Below, piece by piece: positions 20,549 to 23,867 of a DNA stretch of 38,094 nt (within the stretch, counting starts at the first letter, position 1; each line of letters begins with the position of its first letter). Origin of the DNA: Planctomycetota bacterium (GTDB lineage: Bacteria; Planctomycetota; MHYJ01; WSZJ01); the NCBI GenBank assembly GCA_021413805.1, contig JAIOPR010000053.1:1-38094 (forward strand), written 5' to 3'. The notes under the pieces were generated by a model, which saw nothing but the letters and a program-made list of their open reading frames with translations, was not told where the DNA came from and did not search any database. Both the position numbers and the translations under genes were made by a program.

Positions 20549-21838
20549 ATGAAACCCCTCTGCCTCGTCGCCTTCGCCTTCCTGCTCGCCCTTTCCGCCG
20601 CGCTTCTCTCGACCGCCGGCGATCCCGCGGCAAAGGCAAAGGCGGCGAAAGACACCGCCGAGCTTTCGCCCGCCTGGATCTACGACGACCTCCCCGCCGC
20701 GGTCGAGCAGGCGAAGAAAGAAAACAAGCCGCTCCTCGCCGTCTTCCGCTGCCCGCCCTGCAAGGAGCTGAAGTCCTTCGACGAGAAAGTTGCGAAGCTC
20801 GACGGCGAGCTCGCCGAGATTTCGAAATCATTCGTCTGCGTCCGCCTGATCCAGATGCGCGGGCTGGACACCGCGGTCTTCCAGTACGATTTCGACCAGA
20901 CCTGGTCCGCGATGTTCCTGAACGCCGACATGACCGTGTACGGGCGTTACGGCTCGCAGGCCGGGGGCGGCGACAAGACCGAGATCCTCTACTCGGTCGC
21001 CGGGCTCAAGGCCGCGATGGAACGCGCCGCGGCGATCCACAAGGCGTACCCCGGCAACAAGGAAACGCTGAAGCCGAAGCAGGGGAAGGCGTACCCGTGG
21101 AAAACCGCCGAGTCGATGCCGTCGCTCCAGGAGCGCTACAAGGACGACAATTTCCCGAAGAACTGCATCCACTGCCACATGGCCTGGAAAGGCGTGCGGC
21201 GCAGCATGCTCATGCAGAAGACGCCGCTTCCCGATTCGCTCATCTACGTCTACCCCTTCCCGGATTCATTCGGGATGCGGATGGACGCGGTGGACGGGGT
21301 GAAGGTTACTGAAGCGGTGAAGGACTCGCTCGCCGCGAAGGCCGGACTGGCTGCGGGGGACGTGGTCGAGACGATCGGCGGAGCGCCCATCGTTTCGCTC
21401 GCGGACATCCAGTTCGCTCTTCAGAATTGCGCCGACAATGAGTCGCTGAAAATCAGCGTGGCGCGCGGTGCCGAAAAGAAAACATTCACGGTCGCGCTGT
21501 GCGGCGATTGGCGCAAGTCGACCGAGATCTCGTGGCGCGAATCGGCGGGCGACCTGCGCCCCGGGTTTCCCTCGGGCCCGCTGACGGCCGAAGAGCGGAC
21601 GGCGGCCGGGGTGAAGGAAGGCGGCCTCAAGATCCTGCGGATGCACGAGCGGAGCAGTGGCAGGAAACTTGGGTTTGTGGAGGGCGACATCCTTGTCAAA
21701 GTCGGGGGCGAACCGGTTCCCGCGACCGAGAAGGAATTCCTCGCGCTTCTCCGGCAGAAGTTCCTGCTGGGGCAGAAGGTGAAGTTCGAGCTGGTGCGGG
21801 ACGGGAAGAAGACGGAGCTGTCGATCGACATTCCATGA
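20549..21838 (+). CDS. Secreted thioredoxin-fold/CXXCH/double-PDZ protein, cysteine (CPPC) form
   Basis: 429-residue exported protein. After a signal peptide (LVAFAFLLALSAALLSTAGD) comes a thioredoxin-like domain with VFRCPPCKELKSFD (C68, C71) and the family-specific MRGLDTAVFQYDFDQTW. A CIHCH heme-type motif follows (C206, C209, H210). Two PDZ-like domains complete it, at about 241-335 (AAKAGLAAGDVVETIGGAPI) and 345-429 (KLGFVEGDILVKVGGEPV). It is probably a periplasmic thiol-disulphide protein that may bind heme c. NCBI uses a family name of the type Trx7/PDZ domain-containing (seleno)protein for such proteins, as I recall. Start ATG 20549 begins the signal peptide; the frame upstream to 20471 runs into the repeat. 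Its paralogue 530 bp downstream has UGA at both active-site Cys positions. Confidence 0.87.
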   Translation: MKPLCLVAFAFLLALSAALLSTAGDPAAKAKAAKDTAELSPAWIYDDLPAAVEQAKKENKPLLAVFRCPPCKELKSFDEKVAKLDGELAEISKSFVCVRLIQMRGLDTAVFQYDFDQTWSAMFLNADMTVYGRYGSQAGGGDKTEILYSVAGLKAAMERAAAIHKAYPGNKETLKPKQGKAYPWKTAESMPSLQERYKDDNFPKNCIHCHMAWKGVRRSMLMQKTPLPDSLIYVYPFPDSFGMRMDAVDGVKVTEAVKDSLAAKAGLAAGDVVETIGGAPIVSLADIQFALQNCADNESLKISVARGAEKKTFTVALCGDWRKSTEISWRESAGDLRPGFPSGPLTAEERTAAGVKEGGLKILRMHERSSGRKLGFVEGDILVKVGGEPVPATEKEFLALLRQKFLLGQKVKFELVRDGKKTELSIDIP

Positions 21839-21982
21839 GAGCGTGAGAAACATTCGCCCTACGGCCCGCGACACCAGCCCATCCGGCGCGCGAGAGGTGT
21901 TCGGAGTGGAATCTGATTTTTCGAGGCGCGCCGGACGGGCCGGCGCCGCGTGCCTGCGGGCGACTGTTTCTCACGCTCTCAT
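21835..21982. repeat. Long imperfect palindrome A, arm starts at stop codon
   Basis: 148-bp inverted repeat. The left arm begins ATGAGAGCGTGAGAAACA at 21835 and contains the stop codon of the CPPC gene. The right arm (21963-21982) is its reverse complement and is followed by TTCGTTGC. Inner arm segments also pair: ATCCGGCGCGC with GGCGCGCCGGA, and CGGCCCG with CGGGCCG. The apex is AT-richer (around 21905-21930). It is homologous to palindrome B after the paralogue (23658-23810). It could form a DNA cruciform, an RNA hairpin or terminator, or be a mobile palindrome. Confidence 0.85.
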
Positions 21983-22020
21983 GCTTCGTTGCCGAAAGCT
22001 TGCGGCCGATCCGAAAGCTG

Positions 22021-22059: not shown

Positions 22060-22116
22060 GGCTCCTCAAACACCGAAAACCTCGGAATGGATCACAACTC
22101 GACGGAATATGTGAGT

Positions 22117-22234
22117 CAGAGCGTGACAAAAATCCGCGCGGGTCGGGCGGAGTCGGCCCTCCACCGAAAGACCTTTCCACTAACGATCCCTGGGCCGACG
22201 CAGCCAGACACGCCGGATTTTTGCTCACGCTCTG
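22117..22234. repeat. Long imperfect palindrome C
   Basis: 118-bp inverted repeat. The left arm starts CAGAGCGTGACAAAAATCCG (22117-22136). The right arm is the reverse complement of CAGAGCGTGAGCAAAAATCC-G (22214-22234), with a 1-base indel. Inner arms GTCGGCCC (22152-22159) and GGGCCGAC (22192-22199) pair. The outermost GAGCGTGA matches the arm ends of palindromes A and B, while the interior differs. Confidence 0.8.
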
Positions 22235-22370
22235 AGTTCGCGACGCCACAACCCATTGCGGGAACAGGGATTACGGCGCCTCTTTTCAGCGGCAGCATTC
22301 CCGCGTTCCGGGTGTAACACTTCCCTGACTTCCCCGTCCTTTCGTTAACCCGAAAAGGACTCCACCCCCG

Positions 22371-23663
22371 ATGCTCCGCTCGCGCTGCTTCGCCACCGTC
22401 GCCCTCGCCGTCTTCCTTACCGCCTCGTCCGCGATGCGCCTCACCGCGGACGACAAGCCCGCCGACCGCCGGGCCAAGGTCGGCGACGACCCGAACATCT
22501 CGAGCCAGTGGATCTACGACGACATTCCCACCGCCATCGCCCAGGCAAAGCGCGACAACAAGCCGCTCCTCGTCGTCTTCCGGTGAGTGCCCTGAGCGAC
22601 TTGCTTCAAGTTTGACGGGCAGGTTGCCCGTCTCGAGAACGGAACCGAGGAACTGGCGAAACAGTTCGTGTGCGTCCGCGCCGTCCAGATGCGCGGCGTC
22701 GATACCTCGATCTTCCAGTTCGACTTCGACCTGACGTTCTGCGCGTTCTTCCTGAGCCCCGACCTCACCATCTACGGGCGCTACGGGTCCCGCAAGGACG
22801 CCACCGACACGCAGTTCAATATCGAAGCCTTCAAGACCGCGATGTCCCGCGCCCTCGACATCCACAAAGGCTTCCCCGCCAACAAGGCCGCGCTCGCACC
22901 CAAGACCGGCAAGGCCTACGAATGGAAGCTGCCCGAGACCATGCCGTCCCTCGAGCAGATGTTCCGGAACCCGAATTTCCCGAAGGGCTGCATCCACTGC
23001 CACCACGTGTGGCGCGGCGTGCGGCGGTCCATGCTGATGGAGAAGAAACCGCTTCCGGCGAACCTCCTCTACACGTACCCGATGCCGGACGCAATCGGCA
23101 TGACGGTCGACCCGGCCAGCGGCATCAAGGTCTCCGCGGTCGCGGCGGGGACCCCGGCGGCGAAGGCGGGCGTCCTGCCGGGCGACACCCTCGAGGTCAT
23201 CAACGGGCAGCCGATCGTCTCCATCGCCGACGTCCAGTGGATCCTGCAGAACTCCCCCGACGCCGCTTCGCTGAAAATCGAAGTCACCCGCGGCGCCGAA
23301 CGCAAAACCCTCACCGCCACCCTCGCCGGTGAATGGCGCAAGGCCGCTGACTTCACCTGGCGCACTTCCTGCGGCGACCTCCGCCTCGGGATGCTGATGA
23401 TCGCGATGTCCGACGATGAACGCAAAACCGCCGGGATCAAGGCGGGCGGCCTCAAGGTCAAGAACGTCTACAAGAACGGCGCCGCCACGAACGCCGGCTT
23501 CCAGAACGGCGACCTCGTCATCGGCGTCAACGGCCAGCCCATGCAGGCCACCGAGGCCGAGTTCCTTGCCTACGTCCGGCAGAAGCTCACCCTGGGCGCC
23601 AAGCTCAAGCTGACCATCGTTCGCGGCGGGAAGCGCCAGGACATCCAGGTGGACGTCCCCTGA
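22371..23663 (+). CDS. Putative selenoprotein: thioredoxin-fold/CXXCH/double-PDZ with in-frame UGA at both active-site positions (U-V-P-U)
   Basis: One frame of 430 codons, interrupted only by UGA at 22584-22586 (codon 72) and 22593-22595 (codon 75). Read as selenocysteine, the site is VVFR-U-V-P-U-ATCFKFD. It aligns without gaps to VFR-C-P-P-C-KELKSFD of the paralogue at 20549-21838. The rest is collinear and well conserved: signal peptide, MRGVDTSIFQFDFDLTF, CIHCH (C207, C210, H211), PDZ 1 (AAKAGVLPGDTLEVINGQPI) and PDZ 2 (NAGFQNGDLVIGVNGQPM). Strong hairpins follow the UGAs (22588-22632). It is probably a periplasmic diselenide/dithiol redox protein. A conventional gene finder would split it into a 71-residue fragment and a start near 22668. 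The alternative is a double nonsense pseudogene, which fits poorly with exact Cys replacement and an otherwise intact frame. Confidence 0.85.
22588..22632 (+). promoter_or_regulatory. Bacterial SECIS-like hairpins after the two UGA codons
   Basis: Two mutually exclusive hairpins. Hairpin 1: TGCCC (22588-22592) with GGGCA (22617-22621), an internal loop, then ACTTG (22599-22603) with CAAGT (22607-22611), loop CTT. Hairpin 2: GACGGGCA (22614-22621) with TGCCCGTC (22625-22632), eight perfect pairs, loop GGT. The loop of hairpin 2 starts 26 nt after the second UGA and 35 nt after the first. It has G in the first loop positions, as described for bacterial SECIS elements that bind SelB. The CPPC paralogue has no such hairpin in the same place. 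The SelB-binding role is inferred. Confidence 0.7.
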
Positions 23664-23810
23664 GCGCCTGAGAAACCGTCGCCCTGCGGCCCGCGACACC
23701 AGTCCGTCCGGCGCGCGAGAGGTGTTCGCAGCGGATTCTGGGGTTTTCCAGGCGCGCCGTCCGGGCCGGCGCCGCGTGCCTTCAGGCGACGGTTTCTCAC
23801 GCGCTCAGGG
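23658..23810. repeat. Long imperfect palindrome B, arm starts at stop codon
   Basis: 153-bp inverted repeat after the UGA-containing gene. The left arm CCCTGAGCGCCTGAGAAACC contains the stop codon TGA (23661-23663). The right arm ends 23810 with the complementary GGTTTCTCACGCGCTCAGGG. Inner arms GGCGCGC/GGCGCGCC pair. It is about 80% identical to palindrome A by eye, and the homology continues ~35 bp beyond the right arm (TTCGTTGC...AGCTTGCG.CCGAT). It sits between convergent genes, so it could act as a bidirectional terminator. Confidence 0.85.
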
Positions 23811-23867
23811 TTCGTTGCAGAGAGCTTGCGACCGATCTGAAAACGGAAATCACATTCCCGGCCCGGC

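Follow-up and report, generated by a model that had tools for sequence, protein, structure and literature searches.

Two in-frame UGA codons and paired downstream hairpins in a predicted double-selenocysteine Trx7/PDZ gene family of Planctomycetota

Results and Discussion

Organization of the Trx7/PDZ gene at 22371-23663

The window, the whole 38,094-nucleotide stretch of Planctomycetota DNA that was analysed, carries on its forward strand (the strand of the genes, domains and hairpins of the window described below) a gene for a predicted Trx7/PDZ double selenoprotein of 430 amino acids (22371-23663). In agreement with the preliminary description, the frame is interrupted solely by two UGAs, at codon 72 (UGA1, 22584-22586) and codon 75 (UGA2, 22593-22595), and the coordinates given there are correct. 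With both UGAs read as selenocysteine (Sec) at positions one and two of the redox motif, the site reads F-R-U-V-P-U-A-T-C, including the Cys noted previously three residues past the second UGA (U-A-T-C). Since the gene itself terminates with a TGA stop codon, UGA is not globally reassigned in this host.

The product starts with a probable Sec-type signal peptide, MLRSRCFATVALAVFLTASSAMRLTAD (22371-22451), as judged by sequence inspection (Arg in the n-region and a hydrophobic core), followed by a Thioredoxin_7 domain (PF13899, Pfam match, 22509-22760), the sequence C-I-H-C-H (Cys207-His211, 22989-23003), a predicted c-type haem attachment motif, and two PDZ domains (PF17820, 23130-23285; PF13180, 23400-23657). 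Thioredoxin_7 plus PDZ is the architecture of family NF041199, in which membership requires 300 bits or more against the curated HMM. The window protein scores 369.5 bits, and the suggestion that the family might already be catalogued as Trx7/PDZ was correct. The AlphaFold2 model of the protein is confident (mean pLDDT 90.5). A PDB search by sequence and fold gave matches covering only the PDZ part, of the HtrA/DegP/RseP type, and an Rfam scan of the window gave no matches.

Upstream lies a tandem paralogue (20549-21838), 50% identical to the 22371-23663 product over 423 residues. As claimed before, its C-P-P-C motif (Cys codons 20750-20752 and 20759-20761) stands at the same place as the UGA pair, each UGA corresponding to one Cys.

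Census of the two redox sites

Family searches were made in 149 and 392 genomes, and the family was present in 51 and 123, respectively. The census set consisted of 130 distinct genes extracted from one phylum (Planctomycetota), with both sites mapped: UxxU in 68, CxxU in 32, CxxC in 30 and UxxC in none. When UGA was aligned as U, the check proposed in the preliminary description, each site was Cys or Sec (a Cys codon or UGA) in 130/130 homologues, and no other residue was found at either site. Beyond what had been described before, UxxU turned out to be the commonest form in the phylum sampled, and a pair of RNA hairpins and a haem motif were recognized. The 68 UxxU genes come from many genera and have full-length frames; with TGAs recurring at these two positions in 68 distinct homologues, the UGA pair of 22371-23663 is far beyond chance.

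On a tree built by FastTree with both redox columns left out, parsimony gave about 20 changes at site 1 and 4 at site 2. A scan of named genomes using the window protein as query detected no relative, and the same scan using a narrower family alignment detected 19 loci, nearly all in Planctomycetota MAGs.

Two hairpins downstream of the UGA pair

The window RNA directly 3' of UGA2 folds into two adjacent hairpins, A and B, with a joint energy of -17.7 kcal/mol, which was equalled by only 1 of 200 shuffles. Hairpin A (22598-22612) has a 6-bp stem and the loop CUU, the stem starting 11 nt and the loop 17 nt after UGA1 (the stem starts at 9 nt in the family), and is selected in UxxU genes only (see below). 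Hairpin B (22614-22632), the predicted bacterial SECIS (bSECIS), has an 8-bp stem and the loop GGU, with an energy of -13.2 kcal/mol, the distance to its loop being 26 nt from UGA2 and 35 nt from UGA1. Hairpin B is absent from the tandem paralogue.

The published criteria for bSECIS elements are a loop of 3-9 nt, a stem of 4-16 bp, G in the first two loop positions, a loop 16-37 nt from the UGA and an energy of -7.5 or lower (PMC13188914). Hairpin B agrees with this model in every respect, that is, loop size, stem length, loop G, spacing and energy, while hairpin A deviates from it in the window in loop G (CUU) and in energy, being weak by itself (-2.7 kcal/mol). The same difference is seen throughout the family: the SelB loop signature G[GU] is present in hairpin B of 68/68 UxxU genes and in hairpin A of 10/68. 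We therefore take hairpin B to be very likely the SECIS, and hairpin A is probably an accessory element rather than a second SECIS.

Just past hairpin B, at about 22634-22653 in the window and at the corresponding place in the other UxxU genes, the RNA has less structure than synonymous shuffles do (z 4.9), as though misfolding were being avoided.

Selection and covariation of the hairpins

Synonymous codons were shuffled within each gene, keeping the protein and the codon usage of that gene, and mean folding energies were compared. For hairpin A, the mean energy in UxxU genes was -5.4 against -2.5 in shuffles (z -12.3), while CxxU genes gave -1.6 against -1.9 (z 0.9) and CxxC genes z -1.3. 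For hairpin B, the corresponding z values were -28.9 (UxxU), -10.7 (CxxU) and -1.0 (CxxC); this hairpin is under selection in both Sec forms and absent in CxxC genes. A stem-pairing score agreed with the folding-energy result, and a control hairpin site farther downstream showed no excess. Hairpin A was first noticed on the initial 70 genes; in the repeat set of 61 later-fetched genes, some of which are close relatives of the initial set, it gave z -10.0 in 25 UxxU genes and z 1.2 in 17 CxxU genes.

The covariation score of hairpin A, calculated on the stated structure, was reached by 0 of 500 shuffles in UxxU genes and by 321 of 500 in CxxU genes. For hairpins A and B jointly, UxxU genes showed changes on both sides in 12 of 15 pairs. 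RNAalifold on the ungapped UxxU alignment recovered only three base pairs of B and no pair of A, and on the ungapped CxxU alignment nothing. The poor recovery in UxxU genes is due to pairing registers that shift by one or two bases and to the many unpaired cells, and since B was recovered partly or not at all, we relied on the shuffle tests and the counts on the stated structure.

After removal of shared ancestry, by taking 16 independent UxxU/CxxU pairs on branch-disjoint paths of the tree, hairpin A was stronger in the UxxU member in 13, weaker in 1 and tied in 2 (p = 0.0012); hairpin B showed no difference between the members (p = 0.29). The sequence statistics thus show that both sites are conserved as Cys or Sec only, that hairpin B is selected together with UGA2 and that hairpin A is selected together with UGA1; we hold with good confidence that hairpin A has a function linked to UGA1. 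Because a clear hairpin A is missing in 4 of 68 UxxU genes, it is not strictly required.

These four genes would be accounted for if hairpin B alone served both UGAs, as its position 35 nt from UGA1, still within the range of 16-37 nt, would allow, the pairing at A then reflecting a constraint at the level of the protein or of codons. Such a constraint is hard to reconcile with the excess of A over shuffles that keep both protein and codon usage, with its disappearance in CxxU genes despite a near-identical protein context, and with its covariation in UxxU genes only, and we consider this explanation quite improbable. A different relation, in which A is a second full SECIS that binds SelB for UGA1 while B does so for UGA2, would agree with the one-to-one tracking of UGA1 by A and of UGA2 by B; moreover, the distance of 16-17 nt from UGA1 to the A loop falls within the published range, close to its lower limit. 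The A loop lacks G[GU] in 58 of the 68 UxxU genes, in all of which B carries it, the energies of A (-5.4 on average and -2.7 in the window) are weaker than the threshold of -7.5, and the 'UGC' seen in A loops is largely the codon of a conserved Cys. Two full SECIS elements are therefore possible but less likely, and the accessory role of hairpin A is preferred.

Selenocysteine machinery of the host

The host MAG (4.57 Mb in 377 contigs, 81.7% complete) was examined for the four sel genes, as had been proposed. SelA (553 bits), SelB (340 bits, including the C-terminal part) and SelD (355 bits) were found, SelD itself being a Sec protein with one in-frame TGA (CAG-U-ASKL). For selC, the sole UCA copy in this 82%-complete MAG is a tRNA-Sec candidate (G000:C376:10876-10975, L002) that scores 41.9 bits, short of the Rfam cut-off (47). 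It agrees with selC of the congeners in the 3' half but not in the 5' half, with the acceptor and D-arm, and thus looks decayed in sequence. The congeners carry a canonical tRNA-Sec(UCA) in 4/4 cases (72-77 bits). The expectation of a complete Sec apparatus was accordingly borne out for selA, selB and selD; for selC it holds in the congeners, and the host copy presumably arose by decay of a duplicate or through faulty assembly, the functional gene then lying in the 18% of the genome that the MAG lacks.

Twenty genomes with U-form genes were checked for both SelB and selC: SelB was above the cut-off in 17, a good selC was above the cut-off in 15, and at least one of the two in 19, the remaining genome having a SelB fragment at a contig edge. 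A single-contig genome with the CxxC form only (G045) has neither SelB nor selC.

The Cys/Sec-only sites, the host selA, selB and selD and the Sec-containing SelD support the UxxU selenoprotein reading proposed in the preliminary description, and both UGAs very probably encode Sec in the real protein. One might regard the gene as a decaying pseudogene, or the TGAs as sequencing errors, given the decayed UCA selC copy of the host and the Cys at both sites of the tandem paralogue. Against this, the same TGA pair stands in 68 full-length genes from many genera, the SECIS and the active-site residues are conserved, and SelD of the host likewise uses Sec; we consider the idea extremely improbable, and at the family level the pseudogene reading is refuted by conservation. 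It is very improbable, too, that some other mechanism decodes the UGAs as Cys or Trp, for instance a tRNA-Cys with UCA anticodon. tRNA-Sec-like tRNA-Cys species with this anticodon exist in other phyla (PMC7609411), and the host itself encodes a tRNA-Cys(GCA) similar to tRNA-Sec as well as a diverged paralogue of SelB; the anticodon of the host tRNA is, however, GCA and not UCA, the UCA tRNA of the congeners is a standard tRNA-Sec, and selA and selD are present. As a decoder of the UGAs, the GCA tRNA is ruled out by its anticodon.

Some additional features of the sel genes were observed. The tRNA-Sec-like tRNA with a GCA (Cys) anticodon (G000:C10:4768-4858, L001, L225; also L226, L227 and L228) has a long variable arm, a long D stem and U73, is found also in G003, G008 and G016, and is similar to the tRNA-Cys of selC* type described from other phyla (PMC7609411). 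The second, diverged full-length SelB (G000:C338:2411-4312, L006) shares 42% identity with the host SelB; its GTPase motifs are altered (GLSGHGKS, DLPGSD, SRVD), whereas its C-terminal region is intact. It is a possible GTPase-impaired SelB paralogue, and a partial relative (49% identical) occurs in G012. Two or three SelB genes each seem to be present in G033, G054 and G056. Contig G000:C243 carries two selD genes; one contains Sec (CAGUASKL), and the other belongs to a frame of 737 aa, possibly a fusion.

A model for decoding of two nearby UGAs

To our knowledge, the mechanism by which bacteria insert two Sec at nearby UGAs is not settled. Our explanation as a whole, which we regard as likely, is that the gene encodes an exported UxxU redox protein, read with a SelB-dependent SECIS (hairpin B) and an accessory hairpin A that aids UGA1. 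SelB would bring Sec-tRNA-Sec to both UGAs, and hairpin B would be the SECIS it binds, the SelB-B contact being deduced from the bSECIS features. Hairpin A, lying between UGA2 and B, would have an accessory role, on which efficient decoding of UGA1 depends. With UGA1 in the ribosomal A site, hairpin A could fold and thereby shorten the path from UGA1 to B, by our estimate from 35 nt unfolded to roughly 20 nt-equivalents folded, as compared with 26 nt for UGA2; folded hairpin A may also pause or slow the ribosome. With UGA2 in the A site, hairpin A would be melted and B would be at its normal distance. The absence of UxxC fits a SECIS B that is set for UGA2, UGA1 being an add-on.

That the second Sec travels with an extra hairpin suggests how one recoding signal could serve two stop codons. 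With a probability somewhat better than even, we propose an undescribed type of cis-element in bacteria: a small hairpin, located 3' of two Sec codons and 5' of their SECIS and gained and lost with the first UGA, which would let one SelB-bound SECIS decode UGAs 9 nt apart, the product being a periplasmic redox protein with diselenide, haem and PDZ domains. The family represents a natural experiment, with about 20 changes by parsimony at site 1 and four at site 2, and with hairpin A tracking the first UGA and hairpin B the second; the question is therefore directly testable using small reporters.

The CxHCH motif and predicted function of the protein

CxHCH was present in 130/130 homologues, 124-153 residues past the redox motif, and in an alignment of 70 sequences the invariant residues include both redox sites and C207, H209, C210 and H211. 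In an exported protein, CxHCH is a standard motif for attachment of haem c. The window protein agrees with the criterion for c-type cytochromes (CxxCH in an exported protein), its export being judged from the N-terminus, and the host encodes cytochrome c assembly proteins. Pfam cytochrome models did not match the CxHCH region of the window protein. With the motif and assembly proteins at hand but no Pfam cytochrome match, haem attachment at CxHCH is predicted from the sequence, and the motif could alternatively bind a metal.

The two active-site Sec can in principle pair, giving a diselenide in U-V-P-U. We infer that the protein may be a periplasmic dithiol/diselenol oxidoreductase, in which electrons would be exchanged between the diselenide and the haem, with the PDZ domains attaching it to partners.

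Relation to known systems

In an inventory from 2026, NF041199 is entered as a CxxU family with a single Sec (PMC13188914). The window protein belongs to the same family by HMM score and has the same domain order, but differs from the listed form in having two Sec (UxxU), the listed form not being part of the HMM definition; it also has hairpin A and the conserved CxHCH, which is absent from the family name. An entry in the GOS metagenome, 'putative secreted serine protease MucD', with two CxxU reads (PMC2398784), was probably the first sighting of this family, and the old name is probably explained by the restriction of PDB matches to the HtrA-type PDZ part. In the open literature searched, we found no paper that describes UxxU or the haem motif in NF041199, or hairpins that each belong to a different UGA.

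We know of no CxHCH motif or PDZ domains in SelL, to which the window protein can be likened by motif alone. SelL is described as a Prx-like protein with a diselenide-bonded UxxU (Shchedrina et al. 2007, cited in PMC2398784); the window protein has the same motif, able to form a diselenide, and its domain is placed by Pfam in Thioredoxin_7. Further double-Sec proteins of bacteria include a Prx-like UxxU protein, the metal-binding NF041115 (UxxU), FmdB (UxxU) and a ferredoxin-thioredoxin reductase with two Sec (PMC13188914, PMC2398784). In these proteins, as here, two redox Cys are replaced by two Sec, but the families are different.

For hairpin A, the closest known idea is the eukaryotic SRE, for example of SELENON, an accessory stem-loop just 3' of the Sec UGA that raises Sec insertion and is separate from the SECIS, which is located in the 3'-UTR (PMC8704476). 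Unlike the SRE, hairpin A is bacterial and is placed 3' of both UGAs and 5' of the SECIS, and any effect on Sec insertion is putative.

With the present results, what was an obscure one-Sec entry can be seen as a redox family widespread in Planctomycetota, with double Sec and predicted haem. They also provide an annotation rule for such genes, the frames of which are broken by ordinary gene callers at the first UGA.

Gene neighbourhood and the tandem copies

The gene order glycerate kinase, Trx7/PDZ and pdxA is common to two congeners (G001 and G002), with yebC in addition in G002. In G002, both tandem Trx7/PDZ copies are UxxU, including the copy syntenic with the C-P-P-C paralogue of the host. 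For this reason, the C-P-P-C copy of the host is best read, as far as the compared sequences indicate, as an in-place change from Sec to Cys.

Around both genes of the window, three long imperfect palindromes with arms of 44-64 nt were observed (21834-21983, 22116-22235 and 23653-23815). They have common ends, AGAGCGTGA...TCACGCTCT, and resemble MITE-like or terminator-like elements.
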